A stretch of DNA of 36,743 nt. It comes from Bacteroidia bacterium 43-41 (lineage in GTDB: Bacteria; Bacteroidota; Bacteroidia; Bacteroidales; Dysgonomonadaceae). Below are positions 8,871 to 32,961 of this stretch, piece after piece (within the stretch, counting starts at the first letter, position 1; each line of letters opens with the position of its first letter). The stretch is from NCBI GenBank assembly GCA_001898165.1, contig MKTD01000075.1, positions 1-36,743 on the forward strand, written 5' to 3'. A program made the translations under genes and the position numbers. The notes below the pieces were generated by a model, which had not been told where the DNA came from, ran no database searches, and saw only the letters and a list, made by a program, of their open reading frames with translations.

Positions 8871-9605
8871 ATGAAGCCTGCTGTTTGGAGATTTGTTCTT
8901 GCAATTGTCTTACTCGTTGCCGTTTCCTGCAATAAGAAAGACGAGCATTCGCTGGGCGAATTCCATATCGACATTGCTACCGTTATTCCTTTAGGGGAAA
9001 ACAGATACACGTTGTTGCTCGACAACGGCAAACGGCTTTGGCCGGCGGCATCCGATGTTCGATACTCTCCGGCCGGCAATCAGCGGGTATTTGTGAATTA
9101 CACCACGTTGTCGGGTGAACAAAGCGGATACGATCATTACGTAAAGATAAACGATATCTGGAATATCCTTACCAAAAAGATCATAGGGCAAACGCCCCAA
9201 AATACCGACAGCATCGGAAATAACCCGGTAAAAATAAACGAAGCATGGGTGGGGAACGATTATTTGAATATCGATTTCATGTTCAATTACGGAGGTACCA
9301 GGCCACACGCCATCAATCTGGTAATCAATCCATCGTATCCGGATGCAACACCCAACACCATTGATCTGGAATTCCGGCATAACGCTTACGGCAGCTCAAG
9401 TACGAGATTTTACGAAGGATTTGTCTGTTTCGATTTGAAACCGCTCCAAAGGCCGGATGTCGATTCCGTGAAATTAGCGATAAAAGCGAAAGAGGGAAAC
9501 GAAGAAAAAACGTATCGTGTGGTTTACAGGTACAACCAGGCCGCATTAAGAAACATAATCGCAGAAACGCCTATTCCGGTAGTCGCTTCGAACGAATACT
9601 ATTAA
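8871..9605 (+). CDS. NigD-like lipoprotein
   Basis: 244-residue predicted lipoprotein: hydrophobic signal and lipobox VAVSC with Cys20. It matches the two-domain NigD-like family of Bacteroidales, with an N-terminal beta-domain (GENRYTLLLDNGKRLWPAAS, then FVNYTTLSGEQSGYDHYVKI) and a C-terminal domain (GNDYLNIDFMFNYGGTRPHA). NigD was named from a Prevotella bacteriocin (nigrescin) locus, but most homologues have no known role and none of the other nigrescin genes are visible here. It is followed by a strong terminator. The surface or periplasmic location is inferred from the lipobox. Confidence 0.85.
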   Translation: MKPAVWRFVLAIVLLVAVSCNKKDEHSLGEFHIDIATVIPLGENRYTLLLDNGKRLWPAASDVRYSPAGNQRVFVNYTTLSGEQSGYDHYVKINDIWNILTKKIIGQTPQNTDSIGNNPVKINEAWVGNDYLNIDFMFNYGGTRPHAINLVINPSYPDATPNTIDLEFRHNAYGSSSTRFYEGFVCFDLKPLQRPDVDSVKLAIKAKEGNEEKTYRVVYRYNQAALRNIIAETPIPVVASNEYY

Positions 9606-23782: not shown

Positions 23783-24172
23783 ATGTCATTTAGATCAGAA
23801 CTAAAAGATTTCTTGATGCGCGGCAGCGTGGTTGACATGGCCGTGGGTATCGTTATCGGAGCCGCTTTCGGCAAAATCGTAACATCTTTTGTTAACGATA
23901 TCCTGATGCCGCCTATCGCATTGATCTCAGATCAGGGACAATTCGCAGACCTGAAGCTTGTTTTGAGGCAGGATCCTGTTGTTACCTGGAATTACGGCGC
24001 TTTCATTCAGACGATCGTCGATTTCGTAATCATAGGCACAGCTATTTTCCTCGTTATCAAGGCGATGAATGCCCTGAAACGGAAAAAAGAGGAAGCACCT
24101 GCTCCTGCTCCCGCACCGACAAAAGAGGAGGTGTTGTTGACAGAGATCCGCGATCTGTTGAAAAACAAGTAA
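23783..24172 (+). CDS. mscL: Large-conductance mechanosensitive channel MscL
   Basis: 129-residue inner-membrane channel that opens under membrane tension to release solutes on osmotic downshock. The first helix [23 protein letters not shown]-type segment (residues 14-35) and the second, [20 protein letters not shown], are classical. The C-terminal tail has an APAPAPAP linker and the conserved amphipathic [10 protein letters not shown]. The length is normal. It has a terminator directly behind it. Confidence 0.96.
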
Positions 24173-24183
24173 GAAGATTCAAA

Positions 24184-24217
24184 CCGTCGGGCCGGTATCC
24201 GGTCAGACGGTTTTTTT
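24184..24217 (+). terminator. Terminator after mscL
   Basis: CCGTC (24184-24188) pairs with GACGG (24206-24210), with an inner CCGG/CCGG stem, followed by seven T. It lies between convergent mscL and the DUF4130 gene. Confidence 0.88.
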
Positions 24218-24986
24218 ACTGCATCTCCGTCAGGTATTTCCAATAACGGCGAGGCATATGTTGGCGTTGCAGCTTAAGGTTGATGCGCTCTTTTATCGTA
24301 ATGCTCTTAAAATACTCTCTCCACATTTCCTGAAAAGAGGCTTCTTCGCCGGATAACTTTTCCTCGTCAAGTCCCCCTGTTTTTAAGTCCGGGAGATCTT
24401 TCTGTGCAAATGAGACTTCTGCAACCGAGCGCGTATCATAATATAACCCGATATTACGGTTTGTGTCGTAAATGATCCACGGCTGGCCGGCATAACGCGA
24501 TTTGAAATGCGGTGCAATCAATGAAAGCACATTGTAACGCGGCGAGACTGGCGCGAACCAGATGCCGTCGGCCGTCTCCTGAAACCGCACGAACTGGATC
24601 AACCTGCGGGCATCGTTTGCCACTTTCTGCGCAATATCCTTGATGCGAAGCACATCGTCGTCACCAAAATTCATCTCTATTCCCTGCGGATGATCGATGT
24701 TCTTGCGGATATAGCGGAAAAGCAGCATCTCCGCCTCAGGCAACTCAGACAACCAAACGCTCAACATCATGTTTTGTGCGAATTTCGACAATTTTTTCTC
24801 CAATCCCTTCCACACACGTCCCGACTTTTCCTTTTCGGTACACACATAATACTGTTCATCGACAAACAGAGGCTTTTGATCGGATTCCGAAAGGATCCGG
24901 TCGGGGAACTTCTTCTTCTCATACGCGAAGAAAACGCAGGAGAGAAGCCCGTCGAAAGTTTTATCGTAAGTAAAAAGAATCATCAT
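24216..24986 (-). CDS. DUF4130 putative DNA metabolism/repair protein (TIGR03915 type)
   Basis: 256-residue protein of the DUF4130 family, usually encoded next to, and presumed to work with, a radical SAM protein with helix-hairpin-helix domain and sometimes fused to a uracil-DNA-glycosylase-like domain. Typical stretches are ILFTYDKTFDGLLSCVFFAY, NDARRLIQFVRFQETADGIW and RYAGQPWIIYDTNRNIGLYY. The usual partner is at 31699-32961, now 6.7 kb away. The second ATG (24981-24983) is the ancestral start; the first Met codon takes one base from inserted DNA. The stop overlaps the mscL terminator's T run. The family's biochemical activity is not established. Confidence 0.87.
   Translation of the reverse strand: MMILFTYDKTFDGLLSCVFFAYEKKKFPDRILSESDQKPLFVDEQYYVCTEKEKSGRVWKGLEKKLSKFAQNMMLSVWLSELPEAEMLLFRYIRKNIDHPQGIEMNFGDDDVLRIKDIAQKVANDARRLIQFVRFQETADGIWFAPVSPRYNVLSLIAPHFKSRYAGQPWIIYDTNRNIGLYYDTRSVAEVSFAQKDLPDLKTGGLDEEKLSGEEASFQEMWREYFKSITIKERINLKLQRQHMPRRYWKYLTEMQ
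24963..24985. repeat. Left copy of 23-bp direct repeat bounding the inserted region
   Basis: Identical over 23 bp to 31675-31697. It contains the start codon and first seven codons of the DUF4130 gene (minus strand, encoding MILFTYD). Identity stops exactly at both edges of the repeat. Confidence 0.97.
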
Positions 24987-25000
24987 ATTACAAATTCTGT

Positions 25001-25159
25001 TTACAGTGATGAAATAGTCAAATCCCCAACACTTTTTCCAGCTTCAACCATCATCTTACTTTTATAGAGATTTTTGAAGACCGAAATCTCAAACACCGTA
25101 GCAAACCCATTGTCCAGCACACACCTAATCTGATCTATTTCAGAAGTAACGGGACACAT
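25001..25159 (-). CDS. Small 52-residue ORF upstream of the DUF4130 gene
   Basis: Starts MCPVTSEIDQIRCVLDNG and ends KSVGDLTISSL; there is no recognisable domain or signal peptide. The ATG (25157-25159) is preceded by GGGGAGATT and by a -7 box TACATTTG (25183-25176). It ends 14 bp before the DUF4130 start, so it may act mainly as the leader of that transcript. It lies entirely within the inserted DNA. Whether the peptide is made is uncertain. Confidence 0.4.
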   Translation of the reverse strand: MCPVTSEIDQIRCVLDNGFATVFEISVFKNLYKSKMMVEAGKSVGDLTISSL

Positions 25160-25175
25160 AGAATCTCCCCGATGG

Positions 25176-25183
25176 CAAATGTA
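25176..25183 (-). promoter_or_regulatory. Candidate promoter inside the island reading into the DUF4130 gene
   Basis: TACATTTG on the minus strand matches TAnnTTTG. It could supply transcription to the DUF4130 gene after it was separated from the radical SAM gene. No clear -33 TTG was found. Confidence 0.4.
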
Positions 25184-25267
25184 CAATAACTTTTACATTG
25201 GAAAACACTTCTTTCACGGCATTATATCCGGCATTGTTCAAATTAGCGTGATTTTTCATATTTACGG

Positions 25268-25376
25268 GTGCCTTACCCTCTTCCCAAGATTATTCGCACA
25301 GAATTTCCGTCAGATTGCACCATCCCCAGCCGGAATGTCGTGCCTTACCCTCTTCCCAAGATTATTCGCACAGAAT
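25268..25376. repeat. Two identical 37-bp direct repeats 35 bp apart
   Basis: Copies at 25268-25304 and 25340-25376 begin GTGCCTTACCCTCTTCCC and end TTCGCACAGAAT, with no mismatch. The flanks also share a degenerate ATTGCACCANCCC (25315 and 25404 regions), suggesting a larger, partly eroded unit. On the minus strand one frame reads CANNLGKRVRH in each copy. Only two copies and no cas genes are seen. Apart from this and the small ORF, 25160-25473 holds no gene. Confidence 0.95.
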
Positions 25377-25473
25377 GCTTTTGCCCGCAGGTTCCCCTTA
25401 TTGCACCAGCCCTCAATGATATGGGCGAAAATATAGGCGTTTAAAGAAACTCAAAAGCAAAGGCAGGGATATC

Positions 25474-26454
25474 TCAAAAATATACTGTATGTTTCTCCGC
25501 ACTCAGTCCACCCAGTATACCCCAGCCACTATTTATATTAGAATGTATCTGTATGGCTTCCGTATAAGCATCCTGGTCTGTTATTCGATAAAGCATCACG
25601 GACTTGAGATAGTAATACAAATCGCGTGTAATAGACTGCAACTCAATGACTGCATGAGGGTGCTCCCCATATCTTAAATGAGTCTCTACCGAGAAAGTAT
25701 ATTCTTTGCCGTTAAACAAATGGTCATCAAATATATTGGAAAAGTGAGCAACCCATCCACCATAGCCCCGCGTCAACTGTTCGTCCATGAAAATGACATC
25801 AGACGAAGTGTAAATATCACTATATTGTAATATTACCTCTGAACTACCTCCCCTTTTATCGTGCGCAATACTTCTCACTTTTAAACGATAGTAATTACGT
25901 TCATCACCCGGATCCGTCAGACGAAGTGTAATGTGCGCCACCGTATCCTGCGATATATCGGACAGAGGACCTTCACCTATATATTCTTTTTTATAATATT
26001 TCTCACAGCCCAGTATCTCCAGTAGTTGAACATTAGGGACAATCGTCTCTGCTGAAACGGATTCCAAATCCTCCGCCTTAACACGCAATGTAATGCGATC
26101 ACCACTCCGGGGCATATAATCACTTGTGAAATTGTAATGCAAAGGATCGTAACGCATGGTATATTTTTCCTGTTCGTTGACAACCAGTTCCACTTCAGCT
26201 TCTGATAAGACGGCTTTTTCATAAAAAGGATCGGGATGTGCCTCATATTCCCAATAATCTATATAATTCAAAGCAGGTACTTCCGTGAACAGGTACGCAC
26301 GAGAAATTGCTGCCGTGAAAACTGTATCTGGAACGGCCAGGGCATTAACCGTAATACCTTGCAAACCATTTTCACTCCCTTGAAAGTCTATCATATGCTC
26401 ACAACCAGGCATCAAGAGAATGACCATACATCCCATTATTTTTCTGAAGTCCAT
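25474..26454 (-). CDS. DUF4249 lipoprotein, partner of the TonB-dependent receptor
   Basis: 326-residue predicted lipoprotein (lipobox LMPGC, Cys18) of the DUF4249 family, which in Bacteroidetes is usually encoded immediately after a TonB-dependent receptor. Visible family features are an N-terminal beta-rich part with VNALAVPDTVFTAAISRAYL, a middle RSGDRITLRVKAEDLESVSA segment and the C-terminal DLYYYLKSVMLYRITD stretch. It starts 4 bp after the receptor stop, so it is translationally close. A surface lid or ligand-binding role beside the receptor is the common assumption but not proven. Confidence 0.85.
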   Translation of the reverse strand: MDFRKIMGCMVILLMPGCEHMIDFQGSENGLQGITVNALAVPDTVFTAAISRAYLFTEVPALNYIDYWEYEAHPDPFYEKAVLSEAEVELVVNEQEKYTMRYDPLHYNFTSDYMPRSGDRITLRVKAEDLESVSAETIVPNVQLLEILGCEKYYKKEYIGEGPLSDISQDTVAHITLRLTDPGDERNYYRLKVRSIAHDKRGGSSEVILQYSDIYTSSDVIFMDEQLTRGYGGWVAHFSNIFDDHLFNGKEYTFSVETHLRYGEHPHAVIELQSITRDLYYYLKSVMLYRITDQDAYTEAIQIHSNINSGWGILGGLSAEKHTVYF

Positions 26455-26458
26455 TGCA

Positions 26459-29020
26459 TCAAAATTCTAAAGTATAATTCAATGAAGGCATAAAGGGAAA
26501 TACGCAAATCCCTTTTAGCACCGTCTTATTTTTCTCGTACCCGATATAAACGTCCGATACATTCTGCCTGTTATAAAGATTGTAAACTGTTAGCCCCAGC
26601 ACGCTTTTTCCTCTTTGATGCTTCACGGAATAGTTGACGCTGACATCCAAACGGTGGATATCCGGGAGTTTGTAGTCATTACGTTCCGAGTAAGTATAAA
26701 AGCGGGAAAACTTACGGAGGTAAGCCACCCCGTCAGGACCATCCCCATACCGGTCACCCCCCAAATAAGAATCACCGGAAGAGAGTTGTCCGTAAGGGTC
26801 GTATTCATCCAGTTTCCCGCCATATATGGCAGTCGTGGAGAGCACACCCCGTCTGCCGGTCTGATAGGTCCATGCTGTCGATACATCCCAATGCGTGTTA
26901 AAACGATGCGACACCACAACATTTATATTATTACGGCGGTCATTTCCTGCATAAAACTCCCGTCCACCGCTTATTTCTTGTCCTATACGGTCATACTTTC
27001 TCAATGACTTGGACCATGTATAACCTATCCATCCGGTAGTATTTCCCTTTTTTTTCTGCAACAGCAACTCCATGCCGTAGGCACGTCCTTTGCCCAGTGC
27101 AATCATCTCCTGCCAGTCGCCCGAAGAGGTCATATAGGAAACGCCTTCACGATAATCCATCACATTATCCATCATTTTGTAATATCCTTCTATCGAAAAA
27201 TTGACTTTCTCCTTTATAGTGTAGTTGTAGCCTAATGCCCATTGGTCTGCTTTCATCAGCGGTACCTTCCGGGTTATGGGCACCCAGATGTCGGAGGGCA
27301 TTATCAAGTTACTACTGCTTAGCAGATGGATACCTTGCGTCATGCGGGCGTAAGAAATTTTGAGCGCCATATCATTTGTCAACAAATAACGTAATGAAGT
27401 CCGGGGTTCGATCGAATGGAATGTTTTTCCTTTTACCGGAAACAATGTATAGCGCAATCCTACATTCATTTTCCACCGTTTCGCCGGCATCCAGTCATCT
27501 TCCACGTAAAGGGCCATAGTCTTCAGGTTTTGCCTCTCTCCTAACAACGTGTCCATCAACTGTTCTGTCTCAAGATACTGATTGTTTTGCCATACCTTTG
27601 TGTATGTCCATTTATAAACATCTACAATAGGCATGAAGTTCTGCAATGATATTTTAGCTCCCCAGCGAAGGTCGTACCGTACTTGTGGTACGTAATGGAA
27701 ATCTACCGTCAAAGCAATATCATCGATGTCGGAATGATATTGGGCATACGAATTTTCATCATACTGCCGCATTAATATCTCCGTAGGGGAGTCTGTGACG
27801 TCATCTTTCCGGTTATGGGTTTCAGATGCTATTTTGAGTCGGTATTTATATTGACTGTAGCTTAAATTCGTATTGGCCGAGAGATGTTCATTCTCCACAT
27901 GTGTCCAGAAGAGGCTCGAAACAATGTTTCCCCACGTGTTATCAGTAGAATTTGCTTTCCAGTTGTCGTAGTTGTATATACGGGTACCATTCGAACTATC
28001 TTCATAAAGTTTGTATTGTTGTCTGCTGTCCGTGGGCGCCGAATTGTATACATCCCTTCCGAGGTAAAAGACAGCGGAGATTTTGTCCTTGACCGAGAAC
28101 TTATGTGTCAGCTTCGCATTGATGTCATAGTAATTCATATACGAGTAGGGACGAAGAGCATCGGGCTTGTCATACACCCTTTCCAGTAAAGGCTGTACGA
28201 TAACGTCAAAATAGGATAAACGCGCCGCCACGTTGAACGAAGTAGTACCCTTATGGATTGGGCCTTCTAAATGTACCCTCGACGATAGCATTCCAAAGCC
28301 CGCAGCCCCGTGATAGTTCTCAAAATCGCCTTCTTTCACGCCGATATCCAACACACAGGAAAGACGTGCACCGTACCGGGCAGGGAAAGCGCCCTTGTAA
28401 AAAATAATGTTTTCTATCATATCTGCATTGAGCGCAGAGACAAAGCCTTTCAGATGCTCGGAATTATAAAGTGTGGAACCGTCTAACGTAATCAGGTTCT
28501 GATCGTAATTTCCGCCCCGTACAAAGATTCCGGCATTGCCGTCGCCGGCCGATTGTACTCCGGGTAAGCGCTGCAATGCCTTCATTACGTCCAACTCGCC
28601 GAACAAGGTAGGCAACGCTTTGACTTGTGCCGCCGTTAATTCCATGGCACTCATCTGCGAATTATTAACTCCGAAATCACGCCTGGCTCCATATACCTGA
28701 ACATCAGGCAACCGGTTGTCCTGAATCATTTCCACAACGAACAACGTATCTCGTTCCGGCGCCAGAAAGCGTGTCTGCGTGGCATATCCCACATAACTGA
28801 AAGTCAACTCCACCGGCTTATGTATCGGAAAACGAAAACTAAAGAATCCTGCCTTATCCGTCGTTTGTCCATATCTGCCGGATTCAGAATAGACATTGGC
28901 ACCCTGCAACGCTGCACCGGATGTGGTATCTTTCATATATCCGCTGACGGTAACTGTTTGTGCACTAAGTTGTAAACTGCACAAAAAGAACAACCCTGTG
29001 GTGAAAACTCCCAGTTTCAT
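26459..29020 (-). CDS. TonB-dependent outer-membrane receptor with CarboxypepD-reg-like domain
   Basis: 853-residue outer-membrane transporter. Signal peptide MKLGVFTTGLFFLCSLQLSA; residues about 22-105 form a carboxypeptidase-regulatory-like domain (VSGYMKDTTSGAALQGANVY); about 108-225 is the plug (LPGVQSAGDGNAGIFVRGGN); the rest is a 22-strand-type barrel ending in LNYTLEF with terminal Phe. It lacks the SusC-type length (about 1000) and its partner is DUF4249 rather than SusD, so it belongs to the non-Sus class. The substrate is unknown; the adjoining CHAP-like protein could suggest peptides. It is fourth in the island operon. Confidence 0.9.
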   Translation of the reverse strand: MKLGVFTTGLFFLCSLQLSAQTVTVSGYMKDTTSGAALQGANVYSESGRYGQTTDKAGFFSFRFPIHKPVELTFSYVGYATQTRFLAPERDTLFVVEMIQDNRLPDVQVYGARRDFGVNNSQMSAMELTAAQVKALPTLFGELDVMKALQRLPGVQSAGDGNAGIFVRGGNYDQNLITLDGSTLYNSEHLKGFVSALNADMIENIIFYKGAFPARYGARLSCVLDIGVKEGDFENYHGAAGFGMLSSRVHLEGPIHKGTTSFNVAARLSYFDVIVQPLLERVYDKPDALRPYSYMNYYDINAKLTHKFSVKDKISAVFYLGRDVYNSAPTDSRQQYKLYEDSSNGTRIYNYDNWKANSTDNTWGNIVSSLFWTHVENEHLSANTNLSYSQYKYRLKIASETHNRKDDVTDSPTEILMRQYDENSYAQYHSDIDDIALTVDFHYVPQVRYDLRWGAKISLQNFMPIVDVYKWTYTKVWQNNQYLETEQLMDTLLGERQNLKTMALYVEDDWMPAKRWKMNVGLRYTLFPVKGKTFHSIEPRTSLRYLLTNDMALKISYARMTQGIHLLSSSNLIMPSDIWVPITRKVPLMKADQWALGYNYTIKEKVNFSIEGYYKMMDNVMDYREGVSYMTSSGDWQEMIALGKGRAYGMELLLQKKKGNTTGWIGYTWSKSLRKYDRIGQEISGGREFYAGNDRRNNINVVVSHRFNTHWDVSTAWTYQTGRRGVLSTTAIYGGKLDEYDPYGQLSSGDSYLGGDRYGDGPDGVAYLRKFSRFYTYSERNDYKLPDIHRLDVSVNYSVKHQRGKSVLGLTVYNLYNRQNVSDVYIGYEKNKTVLKGICVFPFMPSLNYTLEF

Positions 29021-29057
29021 TGTTATTTAGAGTCAGTCCTTACTCCTTATTCCCTTT

Positions 29058-29675
29058 TTAAAACAGTATCTTCACGCCTGCCATACCACAACCTGCACTA
29101 CCCGCGCCAACTTCGGCAAAGAGAGCCAGATGTTGCATGAAATTCCATTCCACACCTATCGGCATTGCTTGCCAGACTATACACTTATCTCTTTCCATAG
29201 TGGCGGAAGATAAATTCATATACTCAGAAGAAACGTCGAAAATATCCATCTTCCCTTTCTCCACCGACATGATCCCTACACCTATGCGTGAGTAAAAAGA
29301 AAATTGTTTCAGGCGAAGCCATGAATACTTACCGGTAACCATCAACGTATGGCATGTATTCTTTATTTCAGCCAACGGTACGGACGATCCCAAAACAACA
29401 TCCCGCTTCACTGTATTGTGAGAGTAAGAAAGTCCTATCGCCAAAGGATCGGAAACGTGGAACAGATAACCCACATTTATTGTCTCTGAAAATCTTTTGT
29501 TGTCAGTGGAATACGGGGCATTCACCATTACATCAACCGGAAGATCCGGCTCTGGAATAGATGCTATCGGCGCAAAACCATAACCAACAAATAGTTCATG
29601 CTTTGAGGCACTCTCTTGAGCATATAGCCCCCCTGCCAAGAGGATAACGAACAATAGAGATAAATAATACTTCAT
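29058..29675 (-). CDS. Small outer-membrane beta-barrel protein
   Basis: 205-residue protein with signal peptide MKYYLSLLFVILLAGGLYAQ and alternating beta-strands (HELFVGYGFAPI, NVGYLFHVSDPLAIGLSYSH, KQFSFYSRIGVGIM, WNFMQHLALFAEVGAGS) typical of an 8-stranded barrel, ending in Phe. The frame remains open up to 29795 but that part overlaps the preceding gene; the ATG at 29673-29675 is chosen for the signal peptide. It sits between the CHAP-like gene (25 bp) and the receptor gene (37 bp). Its function is unknown. Confidence 0.8.
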   Translation of the reverse strand: MKYYLSLLFVILLAGGLYAQESASKHELFVGYGFAPIASIPEPDLPVDVMVNAPYSTDNKRFSETINVGYLFHVSDPLAIGLSYSHNTVKRDVVLGSSVPLAEIKNTCHTLMVTGKYSWLRLKQFSFYSRIGVGIMSVEKGKMDIFDVSSEYMNLSSATMERDKCIVWQAMPIGVEWNFMQHLALFAEVGAGSAGCGMAGVKILF

Positions 29676-29700
29676 AATAACAAAATTGTAGAATATCAAT

Positions 29701-30507
29701 CTATAACTCGACAATAGGTTCAAACCAATAACTTGCCAACATCTCTCCACCGGACAAATGCAAGTTGTAAGATACTTCATAAATTCCGGACGCATTAAAT
29801 GAAATAGTCGCTATTGTTCCTGAGATCGTAACATTCGCTTTAGTTCCTATTACATCCTCACCTTTTCCATCTTCCACAATCCAAGTAGGCAGGACATAAC
29901 TTCCAAAAGGTAAATCACCGGGATATTTCACAGAGTATGTGCTACTAACGCCTACACGGGTTGTTCCGGTCCCATTACTACATTGCAATGATTCATAAAC
30001 AACATCATGCCTACAATAAAATCTCTTATCCATATTTGAATAGGGACCATATCCCGGTGCATGCCGCATTAAAGGAGCCCTACCCCATTTAGATTCATAC
30101 ATCCCTGAAATTGATGAAACGACAGCAGAATGATCCGACTGATAATAAAAAATCTTTTGGGTCTTACTCTCTTCTGTACTTGAATAGTAATCTCTTGACC
30201 AGTATTTACTAATATTATCATTTAGACTGTTAACAGTAGCGTTAAGCCAGCAAGTTTGTCCTCCTTGTGACATATTCCAAGCATAACTATGACAATTATA
30301 AGTCTGGGTAGCGCTTGCCAAATAAGTAGCATTGGGATATGTTGAAGTATAATAAGAATTGGCTTCAGCTATTTCGGCTGCAGACATCTCTGCAAGTATG
30401 ATGGCTTCAATTGTCTTCCCACACTTCGTATATAGTGTAATATAACTATCTGCATAAATATTCATGGATAATAATACCATCCAGAAACTGAATAGATGTG
30501 TCTTCAT
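29701..30507 (-). CDS. Secreted CHAP/NlpC-P60-like protein
   Basis: 268-residue exported protein (signal MKTHLFSFWMVLLSMNIYA). The core reads YNCHSYAWNMSQGG (C72, H73) and later DHSAVVSS (H126) and SKWGRAPLMRH. This Cys...His layout resembles the CTWYAW/GHVAVV pattern of CHAP amidases and other papain-like NlpC/P60 folds, so a cysteine peptidase or amidase is plausible. Residues about 180-268 look like an Ig-type beta-sandwich. It ends 25 bp before the barrel gene and starts 5 bp after the lipoprotein stop. No experimental function is known to me; catalytic activity is inferred from the motif only. Confidence 0.6.
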   Translation of the reverse strand: MKTHLFSFWMVLLSMNIYADSYITLYTKCGKTIEAIILAEMSAAEIAEANSYYTSTYPNATYLASATQTYNCHSYAWNMSQGGQTCWLNATVNSLNDNISKYWSRDYYSSTEESKTQKIFYYQSDHSAVVSSISGMYESKWGRAPLMRHAPGYGPYSNMDKRFYCRHDVVYESLQCSNGTGTTRVGVSSTYSVKYPGDLPFGSYVLPTWIVEDGKGEDVIGTKANVTISGTIATISFNASGIYEVSYNLHLSGGEMLASYWFEPIVEL

Positions 30508-30512
30508 AATTA

Positions 30513-31289
30513 TTACTTATTAATGATTTGTGATACTTTTGTATAATCCTCTAATGTATTCACTTCTCCACCCATTTCTACAAATCGAGACAATAATGAT
30601 TTCTCTTCATTATTTATCTCTTTAGACTTTAATTTTATTTGGGCACCTAACAATAGAGATTTTTTGATCACCTGTAAGCTATATACCTCAGAATTTTGCA
30701 GTTTGTCCTCATATTTTTTATATCTCGCTTTTTCTAACCGGGATATGTTCGGTTCCGCATAAAGTGAAGGAACAAGTCGTGAACTCAAAATCAACTCTAA
30801 ATATCCTATATGCAAAACAGATAATTCATTCTTTGTTGCAGAAAGAGTGATCGCATTTTCTGCAATTTTCCTAACATCTATCCCTTCATAATAAGCAATG
30901 AGCCTGTCAGCAGCATCTTCTCGGTTTTGTAATTCGGCAAAACCATTAAACCCATTTATTATGAACTTTATACCTTCTAACTCATTGTTATAAGCTAGAT
31001 AATTTCCATATAACGGATAATTCATACATGTCTGTATTAAATTATCTGTTGACATACTTTCCAGAATATCCTCCGGTACCTGACAGGCAACTTGCATTTC
31101 TTCAAGACTTTGAAATGTTCTCCACACTACAGGATTAGTTACTGAGTCAAAAGAAAAAAAAGCTTCAGCATTCATCGCTCTTACTTCTACTATTTCTCTT
31201 GTTCTTACATCTTCGGTCACGCAGTTCGTGTTTTCATTACATGCATATAGCAGCAAAAATGAAAGCATCAGAAATAGAATTCTTTTCAT
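30513..31289 (-). CDS. Unrecognised lipoprotein, first gene of the island operon
   Basis: 258-residue predicted lipoprotein (MKRILFLMLSFLLLYAC, Cys17). The mature part is rich in helices and charged residues (SRLEKARYKKYEDKLQNSE) and shows no domain I can name. A promoter box lies 31 bp upstream of its start, and it is followed 5 bp later by the CHAP-like gene. The AT content is visibly higher than in the flanking chromosome. It could guard against, or deliver substrate to, its CHAP-like neighbour; neither can be shown here. Confidence 0.7.
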   Translation of the reverse strand: MKRILFLMLSFLLLYACNENTNCVTEDVRTREIVEVRAMNAEAFFSFDSVTNPVVWRTFQSLEEMQVACQVPEDILESMSTDNLIQTCMNYPLYGNYLAYNNELEGIKFIINGFNGFAELQNREDAADRLIAYYEGIDVRKIAENAITLSATKNELSVLHIGYLELILSSRLVPSLYAEPNISRLEKARYKKYEDKLQNSEVYSLQVIKKSLLLGAQIKLKSKEINNEEKSLLSRFVEMGGEVNTLEDYTKVSQIINK

Positions 31290-31674
31290 AAATATTAAGA
31301 TTAGATAAAATTTGTTTCACAAATATAAAAAAACAAACGCTAAATCGAACTATATTTACATTATTTATATATATTTAATCTAAATAAATGTATTGATATA
31401 TACCTTAATAAGCCTATCATTACATCTATGATGCAATAAGAGGTCACATAATATATATTTTTTGTTAAAGAAAACATTTTGCGTCTGTTCTATCGCGAAA
31501 CTTTATCGTTTGTCGTTATGAAGTCTGCCCGTACTATGGAAGATAAGGTTACGAAACAGAAAATAAGGATAAGGATTCGTCTTCGCATACGCATTGTCTT
31601 TCATTAATTAACAATGAATATTCTCAAAAATCTGATAATCAATGCTCCGGCCGAAACCCTGGATACAGGAATAA
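31290..31674. other. AT-rich gene-free right end of the island
   Basis: Contains the island operon promoter near its left end. On the plus strand, 31518-31607 encodes a possible 29-residue basic peptide ending IRIRIRLRIRIVFH. No terminator or mobility gene is seen. Confidence 0.6.
31320..31327 (-). promoter_or_regulatory. -7 box of the island operon promoter
   Basis: TATATTTG on the minus strand matches TAnnTTTG, 31 bp upstream of the lipoprotein start at 31289, within an AT-rich tract. Confidence 0.55.
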
Positions 31675-31697
31675 ATCGTAAGTAAAAAGAATCATCA
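31675..31697. repeat. Right copy of 23-bp direct repeat bounding the island
   Basis: Identical to 24963-24985. It begins one base past the radical SAM stop codon and keeps the ancestral DUF4130 start codon plus seven codons in the minus orientation. Confidence 0.97.
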
Positions 31698-31698
31698 A

Positions 31699-32961
31699 CT
31701 ACTCTCCCCAATCGATGGAATACTGCAACAACTCCGCCGCTTGTTTTTTCTGTGTCCGGGAAACCTGGCGGCGGACGTATTGAGGCGTGAGTTCGTTTAC
31801 TGTCTGCATCGGCAGTTCGCGGCACACGATAAAGTACTGCGCCCGTTTCATTACCACACCCATTTTCTTCAGTTGCACCGAGTTTAACCGCCCGTATCTT
31901 CGCGAGGCGAGGATCAGTTTTGCCGATTTCACGCCGATTCCCGGTACACGGAGGATCATTTCGTAGGGTGCAGTGTTTACATCAATAGGGAAGAAGGCAG
32001 GATTACGCAGCGCCCAACCCATTTTAGGGTCGATATCCAAGTCAAGGTCGGGATGCGCGTCGTTTACGATTTCATTTGCTTTGAATTCATAAAAGCGCAT
32101 CAGCCAATCGGCCTGATACAGTCGGTTCTCGCGCACCAACGGCGGTTTGGCCAGCGCAGGCAGACGGTTGTCGCCGGTGTTTATGGGGATATAGCCCGAA
32201 TAATAGACCCGTTTGAAAGAGGGCCGCTTGTATAACGCTGATGCCAGCGTGAGGATTTGCTTGTCAGAATCCGGTGTAGCACCAATGATGACCTGCGTAC
32301 TCTGTCCCGCGGGTACAAATTTGGGTGCAGAACGAAATTTCTTCCGGTCTTCCGCGCTTTCCAGCATTCCCTGCTGAATAAAGCGCATGGGAGCAAACAC
32401 GCTCGGGTAATCTTTTTCGGGTGCAAGCAGCTTCAGGTTCTGTTCCGACGGAATTTCGAGGTTCACGCTCATGCGGTCGGCCAGCACCCCTGCTTGTGCA
32501 ATCAGTTCGCTGCTTGCTCCGGGGATAGTTTTCATGTGGATGTACCCGTTAAAGCGGTGCACCTCGCGCAACAGTTTTACAACTCGCACCATCTGCTCCA
32601 TCGTATAATCGGGATTGCGCATTACACCGGAGCTGAGGAAAAGTCCTTCAATGTAGTTCCTCCGGTAAAATTCGATGGTGAGTTCAGCCAGCTCCTCAGC
32701 CGTGAAAGCCGTACGCTTCACGTCGTTACTGCGGCGATTGCTGCAATAGGCGCAATCGTAAATACACTGGTTGGTCAGCAGGATCTTGAACAATGAGATA
32801 CAACGCCCGTCGGGAGTGAAGCTGTGGCAGATGCCCCACCCTGCCGCCGTGCCGATCCCTCCCGGCACATTGTTACGCGAGGTGCCGCTCGATGCGCATG
32901 ACACGTCGTACTTGGCGGCATCGGCAAGGATTTTTAGTTTTTCGAGCGTTTTGTCGTTCAT
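31699..32961 (-). CDS. Radical SAM putative DNA modification/repair protein (TIGR03916 type)
   Basis: 420-residue radical SAM enzyme with cluster cysteines C66, C70 and C73 (NQCIYDCAYCSNRR) and a C-terminal helix-hairpin-helix DNA-binding motif (LRVPGIGVKSAKLILASRR). The family is genetically linked to DUF4130/uracil-DNA-glycosylase-like proteins and presumed to act on DNA; the reaction is unknown. Start at 32959-32961, preceded by CAGGGAAG; the upstream extension to 33081 reads through AT-rich spacer and is rejected. The DUF4130 partner is at 24216-24986 beyond the island. Confidence 0.9.
   Translation of the reverse strand: MNDKTLEKLKILADAAKYDVSCASSGTSRNNVPGGIGTAAGWGICHSFTPDGRCISLFKILLTNQCIYDCAYCSNRRSNDVKRTAFTAEELAELTIEFYRRNYIEGLFLSSGVMRNPDYTMEQMVRVVKLLREVHRFNGYIHMKTIPGASSELIAQAGVLADRMSVNLEIPSEQNLKLLAPEKDYPSVFAPMRFIQQGMLESAEDRKKFRSAPKFVPAGQSTQVIIGATPDSDKQILTLASALYKRPSFKRVYYSGYIPINTGDNRLPALAKPPLVRENRLYQADWLMRFYEFKANEIVNDAHPDLDLDIDPKMGWALRNPAFFPIDVNTAPYEMILRVPGIGVKSAKLILASRRYGRLNSVQLKKMGVVMKRAQYFIVCRELPMQTVNELTPQYVRRQVSRTQKKQAAELLQYSIDWGE

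Follow-up and report, generated by a model that had tools for sequence, protein, structure and literature searches.

Bacteroidia bacterium 43-41, a member of the Dysgonomonadaceae (Bacteroidales), carries on contig MKTD01000075.1 of assembly GCA_001898165.1 two genes that are kept apart by a 6.7-kb insertion. The first encodes a radical SAM protein of family TIGR03916, with a putative role in DNA modification or repair (31699-32961, minus strand; 654.6 bits against NCBIfam). The second is a DUF4130 gene of family TIGR03915, putatively involved in DNA repair, whose start is likely the second ATG (24216-24986, minus strand; Pfam and NCBIfam). The space between them, with the radical SAM gene as its left flank, is referred to here as the slot, and the whole stretch of DNA that was analysed, 36,743 nucleotides in length, as the window. 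An identical 23-bp direct repeat lies at either end of the insertion, and the original prediction, made from the sequence alone, had suggested that this arrangement could be an integrase-less cargo element moved in trans. We propose that the insert is, judged by its sequence, a decayed polysaccharide utilization locus (PUL) with a replaced core, and that the repeat probably, though by no means certainly, arose when an empty form of the slot recombined with a PUL-type form, by homology at DUF4130 and by microhomology on the other side.

The repeat and the usual state of the slot

The two copies of the repeat, at 24963-24985 and 31675-31697, agree at 23/23 positions, are spaced 6712 bp apart and read TGATGATTCTTTTTACTTACGAT on the minus strand. 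The right copy (24963-24985, minus strand) is the start of the intact DUF4130 gene and runs on into it. The left copy (31675-31697, minus strand) is the same gene start placed right behind the radical SAM stop, and it runs on into sequence of a hybrid two-component system (HTCS) gene, to which it is fused. On the minus strand, the radical SAM stop TAG is followed by TTG ATG ATT CTT TTT ACT TAC GAT and then by foreign sequence. The identical copies, the first seven DUF4130 codons, start codon included, behind the radical SAM stop, and an insertion of 6.7 kb between the two genes had all been described in the original prediction, and sequence comparison bears them out.

The only other exact direct repeat of at least 20 bp in the window is a 37-bp pair at 25268/25340, and when the left flank was shuffled 100 times the longest word in common with the right flank did not exceed 9 bp. 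No third copy of the 23-mer, with up to 3 mismatches allowed, was found in the organism's own draft genome of 80 contigs. A non-coding RNA or tRNA target was considered and rejected, as the window yielded neither an Rfam match at gathering scores nor a tRNA. A Pfam scan of seven translated open reading frames (ORFs) of the insert turned up no recombinase, in agreement with what had been predicted; five of these ORFs are long and two short, and one of the short pair spans the left junction.

The usual state of the slot was surveyed in 101 genomes of the family, in sets that hold one genome per species, with cut-offs of E 1e-150 for the radical SAM gene and E 1e-10 for DUF4130. The radical SAM gene was present in 58/101 genomes, and a DUF4130 match, partial in a few cases, in 60/101. 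Where both lie on one contig and strand (55 genomes), the gap between them, counted from the last matched residue with the stop codon included, is no more than 200 bp in 45; tight empty sites with a gap of 2-10 bp, stop codon included, make up 11 of the 55. A further 6/55 have gaps of 279-1606 bp, and the four largest gaps are those of the window (6.7 kb) and of genomes G050 (16.6 kb), G001 (16.7 kb) and G030 (16.8 kb). The adjacent state therefore dominates in the family, as had been supposed, and the slot is variable. Most relatives have the adjacent pair, and the two genes are not always separated by the same genes.

The gap count was made without G485, whose two genes sit on separate contigs; G476 and G046, which gave no match to DUF4130; G026 and G460, which gave none to radical SAM; G461 and G482, which also gave none to radical SAM and only a partial or weak one to DUF4130; and, for G006 and G477, the second match of each (a 3' copy and C92, respectively). 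G477 was considered as a second case of a split DUF4130 gene and rejected, because the radical SAM tail is present at both contig ends, which are variants of one and the same junction. We regard it as a variant of assembly or strain and kept it among the 55 as a 4-bp gap, by way of a 46-residue fragment beside the radical SAM gene. Elsewhere in the family, the slot of G018 (L045) holds a single oxidoreductase-like gene of 420 aa (named by eye), and that of G002 (L047) a single gene for a 372-aa predicted lipoprotein (by eye).

Slot contents in relatives and in the window

In G001, G030 and G050 the slot is occupied by a PUL of 16.6-16.8 kb. HTCS, glycoside hydrolase family 5 (GH5)-like, SusC, SusD, SusE, GH53 and GH2 genes are present as whole ORFs in G001 and G030, and the identical ORF series was listed up to GH53 in G050, where GH2 was seen by alignment only. 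The Pfam scan of the PUL used the proteins of G001, with SusC taken from G030, and the GH5 hit of the GH5-like protein was barely above the cutoff. By gene content, this would be a beta-1,4-galactan PUL.

Remnants of the same PUL lie at both edges of the insert in the window, all on the minus strand. At the left edge is the 5' end of the HTCS gene (31613-31674; blastn 78-81% over 76-78 bp to G001, G030 and G050); the blastn match spans 31613-31690 and begins inside the left 23-mer, the tblastn E values are 3e-5 to 1.6e-4, and in G001, where the gene is whole, it encodes an HTCS. It is followed by the upstream region and signal-peptide codons of the GH5-like gene (31545-31607; blastn 83-84% over 55-63 bp to the same three genomes). 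At the right edge are two remnants of the GH53 (endo-galactanase) gene. The first (25346-25447) has tblastn E values of 1e-6 to 1.5e-7 and a blastn identity of 80% over 59 bp to G030 and G050, and the second (25167-25287) has a blastn identity of 83% over 121 bp and a tblastn identity of 75% in amino acids to G030 and G050 (E 2e-15). The 37-bp exact duplication, with copies at 25268-25304 and 25340-25376 (72 bp from start to start; 25268-25376 as a whole), lies inside this GH53 material.

The outermost remnant on this side belongs to GH2 (25040-25180; blastn 83% over 109 bp to G001 and 79% over 107 bp to G030, tblastn E 2.5e-10). The G050 stretch breaks off here, and the piece that it still covers is 76% identical. 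In this remnant an internal part of the gene is joined to a 3'-end motif, TCAAAAATCTCTATAA, near 25060-25076 (motif by eye), and an ACATTTG microhomology was seen by eye at the GH53-GH2 deletion. The HTCS, GH5-like, GH53 and GH2 remnants keep the order of the PUL at both insert edges.

The 6-kb middle of the insert gave no blastn match to the relatives' PULs at E 1e-3. When the insert was searched with the PUL proteins, three further weak hits were taken as chance: two at 29003-29131 on the opposite strand, to the HTCS of G030 and to that of G050 (E 0.004 each), and a third at 30612-30860, to SusC of G050 (E 8e-4 with composition correction switched off). A functional galactan PUL, with whole HTCS, SusC/D, GH53 and GH2 genes, is absent from the window, which holds only fragments. 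It is this combination of remnants at both edges and an unmatched middle that leads us to regard the insert as a decayed PUL with a replaced core. The GH53/GH2 PUL would have been in the slot first and would then have been worn by deletions in the window lineage, its core being replaced by an operon for an outer-membrane protein (OMP), a TonB receptor and a DUF4249 protein, together with a lipoprotein/DUF7689 pair.

The genes of the core are all on the minus strand. They encode a 258-aa predicted lipoprotein (by eye; 30513-31289; no Pfam or NCBIfam hit), a 268-aa DUF7689 protein (29701-30507; Pfam PF24738), a 204-aa predicted OMP (by eye; 29058-29672; homologue in L061; no NCBIfam hit, and no Pfam hit for a longer version of the ORF), an 853-aa TonB-dependent receptor (26459-29020; Pfam; 79% amino acid identity to Bacteroides stercorirosoris) and a 326-aa DUF4249 protein (25474-26454; Pfam).

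The OMP-receptor-DUF4249 trio (25490-29600) has 76% DNA identity to a trio in B. stercorirosoris DSM 26884, the sole relative returned by the genome scan. Because the receptor is 79% identical between the two organisms, compared with 70% for the radical SAM protein, the comparison suggests that the trio was acquired by horizontal transfer. The next-best receptor matches reach at most 41% (61/101 family genomes searched), and no receptor at E 1e-190 was found in 392 other genomes of the order, a weak negative since two candidates per genome were scored. In a search of 393 genomes, distant homologues of the lipoprotein were found in 8 other genomes and of the DUF7689 protein in 6. Relatives of both, at 25-42% identity and about 0.2-1.1 kb apart from match to match, occur together in five genomes of the order (G201, G202, G251, G297 and G317), and on account of this pairing the two genes look like a separate module.

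Recombination at the slot and the origin of the repeat

The left junction can be located by comparing the two gene starts that meet there. In G001 and G050 the signal-peptide codons of HTCS contain CTTTTTCTTACGAT, from which G030 departs by two differences. The DUF4130 start of the window has CTTTTTACTTACGAT, a near-match of 14-15 bp to the HTCS start with one indel. The left 23-mer is fused to the HTCS signal-peptide codons at the near-match CTTTTT(A)CTTACGAT; the left junction thus falls within the near-match. The leader before the HTCS ATG differs at the PUL-filled sites (CAGGGAGCAAAGCAT in G030).

In the history that we favour, an empty-site allele (radical SAM stop, TTG, DUF4130 ATG) would have met a filled PUL-type allele. 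Such an empty allele would read radical SAM TAG, TTG, ATGATTCTTTTTACTTACGATAAAAC, and the TAG TTG ATG spacing in the window fits it. The right exchange would have taken place in or at DUF4130, by homology, and the left exchange would have been illegitimate, at the near-match between CTTTTTCTTACGAT of HTCS and CTTTTTACTTACGAT of the DUF4130 start, the recipient's first DUF4130 codons thereby being left beside the radical SAM stop. A donor that was close kin would account for the identical copies. Of the suggestion that the event is recent, one part stands, since the identical copies permit a recent junction; the content may be old. What the sequences show directly is the repeat, the ordered PUL remnants, the chimeric junction and the homologous exchange in G001; that there was an empty parent, that decay and exchange followed each other in this way, and that the donor was close kin are inferred.

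Exchange of slot content by homology is seen in a relative, G001. The radical SAM gene of G001 is 85%, 86% and 93% identical to that of G030 in its 5', middle and 3' thirds, compared with 81%, 79% and 77% to that of its genus mate G008. The first two thirds of its DUF4130 gene are 93-96% identical to G030 compared with 76-79% to G008, and the last third is about 75-76% identical to all four genomes compared. Within the PUL, identity is 84-90% to G030, and 91% dropping to 76% to G050. Beyond DUF4130, identity is 68-75% to G030 and G050, compared with 74-78% to G005 and G008. There the G001 gene corresponding to the one at 23783-24172 (plus strand) in the window, which served as an outside marker in the trees and which we take to be mscL-like from the look of the protein, groups with genus mates (99/99), and the approximately unbiased (AU) test rejects its grouping with the window plus genus g11 (p 0.018; g1 and g11 are genus codes). 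The gene next to it also groups with genus mates (93/96), and the short pieces upstream of radical SAM gave no decision either way. Since the breakpoints fall inside the flanking genes, sharply in DUF4130 and less sharply in radical SAM, the identities show that the slot content of G001 came by homologous recombination. The stretch in question, G001:C1:3596000-3616500 (L040/L041), holds the GH53/GH2 PUL, imported from a g11-type genome; directly upstream of the G001 radical SAM gene lies a transposase-like gene (L041 9330-10241, named by resemblance).

The window has a suggestive mosaic structure. Upstream of radical SAM, and outward from the gene after mscL, it is g1-like, the gene past mscL grouping with g1 (88/98), and the mscL-like gene itself is g11-like (100/99). 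The 5' two thirds of radical SAM group with g11 (100/99; AU rejects the grouping with G005/G008/G009, p 0.0005), whereas the 3' third is 81-85% identical to four g1 genomes compared with 76-79% to four g11 genomes, with tree support of 81/99 for a wide group and 65/76 for G005/G008/G009. In DUF4130, nt 1-513 group with g11 (100/99) and nt 513-768 with G005/G008/G009 (95/99), so that the trees place a tract change near nt 513, where the AU tests are marginal or non-significant. A uniformly g11-like locus, as given by whole-gene trees of radical SAM, DUF4130 and mscL (the G030 row covering 702/768 bases in the DUF4130 tree), was dropped because the split genes show the mosaic. Taken together with G001, the slot is best explained as a variable site whose content may be exchanged by recombination in the flanking genes.

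It is important to set out what weighs against this history. A grouping of the window with g11 survives the AU test both for radical SAM nt 841-1260 (p 0.26) and for DUF4130 nt 513-768 (p 0.26); the grouping of DUF4130 nt 1-513 with G005/G008/G009 is rejected only marginally (p 0.036 / 0.052); DUF4130 nt 1-256 are undiscriminating, at about 80% to both groups; and the partitions were picked after the identities were seen. Several exchange tracts are needed, since the radical SAM 5' two thirds and mscL are both g11-like. A diverged donor should not yield identical 23-mers, and codon 3 is Leu in both copies, as in G002, G006 and G018, compared with Val in five g11 tree genomes, a weak signal in view of the Val of G003 (g1) and the Leu of G477 (g11). 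G001 and G050 fall to 76% identity across SusC-GH53, with no single close donor identified, and the genome sets, with their one genome per species, hold no same-species strain with an empty site.

A doubtful alternative is local repair, in which about 36 bp of leader and HTCS start in a PUL-bearing ancestor would have given way to a copy templated on the DUF4130 start, through a template switch or short gene conversion at the common CTTACGAT, with no empty allele involved. The identity of the two copies would be accounted for directly, and the junction does contain the common word. What local repair leaves unexplained is the empty-site spacing (TAG TTG ATG) behind the radical SAM stop, as well as the g1-like 3' third of radical SAM, itself weakly supported.

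It is rather improbable that the PUL block looped out as a circle via the near-identical words of the HTCS and DUF4130 starts and then entered the DUF4130 start of an empty allele by a single crossover, which would yield the 23-bp duplication. The boundaries and the identity of both copies are as such a circle would predict. Against it, 23 bp are short for a RecA-dependent crossover, the tract change inside DUF4130 favours a longer homologous exchange, and no circle was observed. Single-crossover duplications of 109-950 bp of a homologous locus have been reported (PMC3240628).

Quite unlikely is the integrase-less cargo of the original prediction, carrying attachment (att) sites or a target-site duplication and moved in trans by a recombinase encoded elsewhere. 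The identical 23-bp flanks at a gene start, the lack of a recombinase among the insert ORFs scanned and the absence of the insert from most relatives would all suit it. The ends of the insert do not suit it: they are remnants of the PUL by which this slot is occupied in G001, G030 and G050, and only 25490-29600 matches B. stercorirosoris, which argues against a discrete, fresh element ending at the repeats. In the 20.6 kb around the B. stercorirosoris trio, no recombinase was seen by eye among ORFs of at least 110 aa. The repeats were not found at the ends of other elements, whether in the organism's own genome, in the 101 family genomes or at the three PUL-bearing orthologous sites. Outside the window, the 23-mer (up to 3 mismatches, 101 family genomes) has one match each in G001, G030, G050 and G004, and the first three are all the DUF4130 start. 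The match in G004 (L073, G004:C85:1917-1939) has 3 mismatches and lies in a genome that yielded neither a radical SAM nor a DUF4130 gene.

Flanks were compared at 8/10 sites with a gap above 200 bp (G000, G001, G030, G050, G003, G002, G018 and G006, without G458 and G049). At the PUL-filled sites of G001, G030 and G050 the longest word common to both flanks is 7 bp, the same as in shuffles, and the flanks of G002 share an 11-bp word, equal to the maximum of its 100 shuffles. The distribution of the 23-mer and the lack of repeats at PUL-filled sites tie the repeat to one junction and not to a family of elements and are, with the missing third copy in the genome, the grounds on which an att site or target-site duplication was rejected. 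The movement of slot content in G001 by homologous recombination in the flanking genes also speaks against transport in trans.

That two loci were joined at a short repeat during assembly is hardly credible: the contig is a draft, but 23 bp are below usual assembly word lengths, and on either side the remnants follow the PUL order seen in other genomes.

A mirrored case and comparison with known systems

Recombination between a filled and an empty allele, as in the history that we favour, would have a counterpart in G006 (L048, G006:C77), where a different uptake operon lies between a full DUF4130 gene (2179-2946) and a copy of its 3' end (about 9310-9448; 139 bp, 95% identical). The operon encodes FecR and a TonB receptor (Pfam) as well as sigma-like and methyltransferase-like proteins (by eye), and no recombinase was found in the three proteins scanned or, by eye, among the others. 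G006 appears as the mirror image of the window, the outcome to be expected of an imprecise exchange that had its anchor on the opposite side. It is conceivable, and we offer it only tentatively, that the radical SAM/DUF4130 pair serves as a standing gateway for the exchange of outer-membrane uptake operons among genera of the family without an integrase, imprecise entries leaving a partial DUF4130 behind, the 5' end in the window and the 3' end in G006. If so, the conserved coding ends would serve as a homology anchor and also supply accidental att-like words. It is common to interpret identical direct repeats at gene boundaries as att sites, and the comparison at this slot shows how recombination of filled and empty alleles could leave att-like repeats; G001 adds a traceable case of a PUL passing from one genus to another through homologous exchange inside flanking genes. 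Among the papers listed on PUL recombination and transfer, DUF4249, and TIGR03915/TIGR03916/DUF4130, no title or abstract opening dealt with this site.

With integrative elements that are mobilised in trans, such as cis-mobilizable elements (CIMEs), the insert has in common that direct repeats mark a gene end and that no recombinase was found inside. Unlike theirs, the window repeats are gene-start codons fused at a microhomology and are absent from PUL-filled sister sites, while the insert itself consists of PUL debris and unrelated operons.

The PUL of the relatives resembles the pectic galactan PUL of Bacteroides thetaiotaomicron (BT4667-BT4673), which according to PMC5238430 includes GH2, GH53, SusE, SusD, SusC and HTCS components, all of which are found in the relatives' slot. 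The relatives add a GH5-like gene, and the window keeps only HTCS, GH5-like, GH53 and GH2 fragments.

The closest comparison for the exchange itself is homology-facilitated illegitimate recombination (HFIR), in which an insertion lies next to a homologous anchor and the other junction has a short common sequence; PMC3240628 gives mostly 3-10 bp of microhomology at the illegitimate end. The window likewise has its second junction at a short microhomology (CTTTTTCTTACGAT and CTTTTTACTTACGAT), though as a 14-15 bp near-match with one indel, and here the process is read from sequence and needs several tracts. A recipient deletion similar in size to the insertion was not found: DUF4130 is whole, no gene is missing in comparison with adjacent-gene relatives, and a 23-bp duplication was left instead. 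For want of this usual deletion the step is called HFIR-like, which lowers the claim to a textbook HFIR product and not the claim to the type of mechanism; the process behind the repeat is of a known kind.

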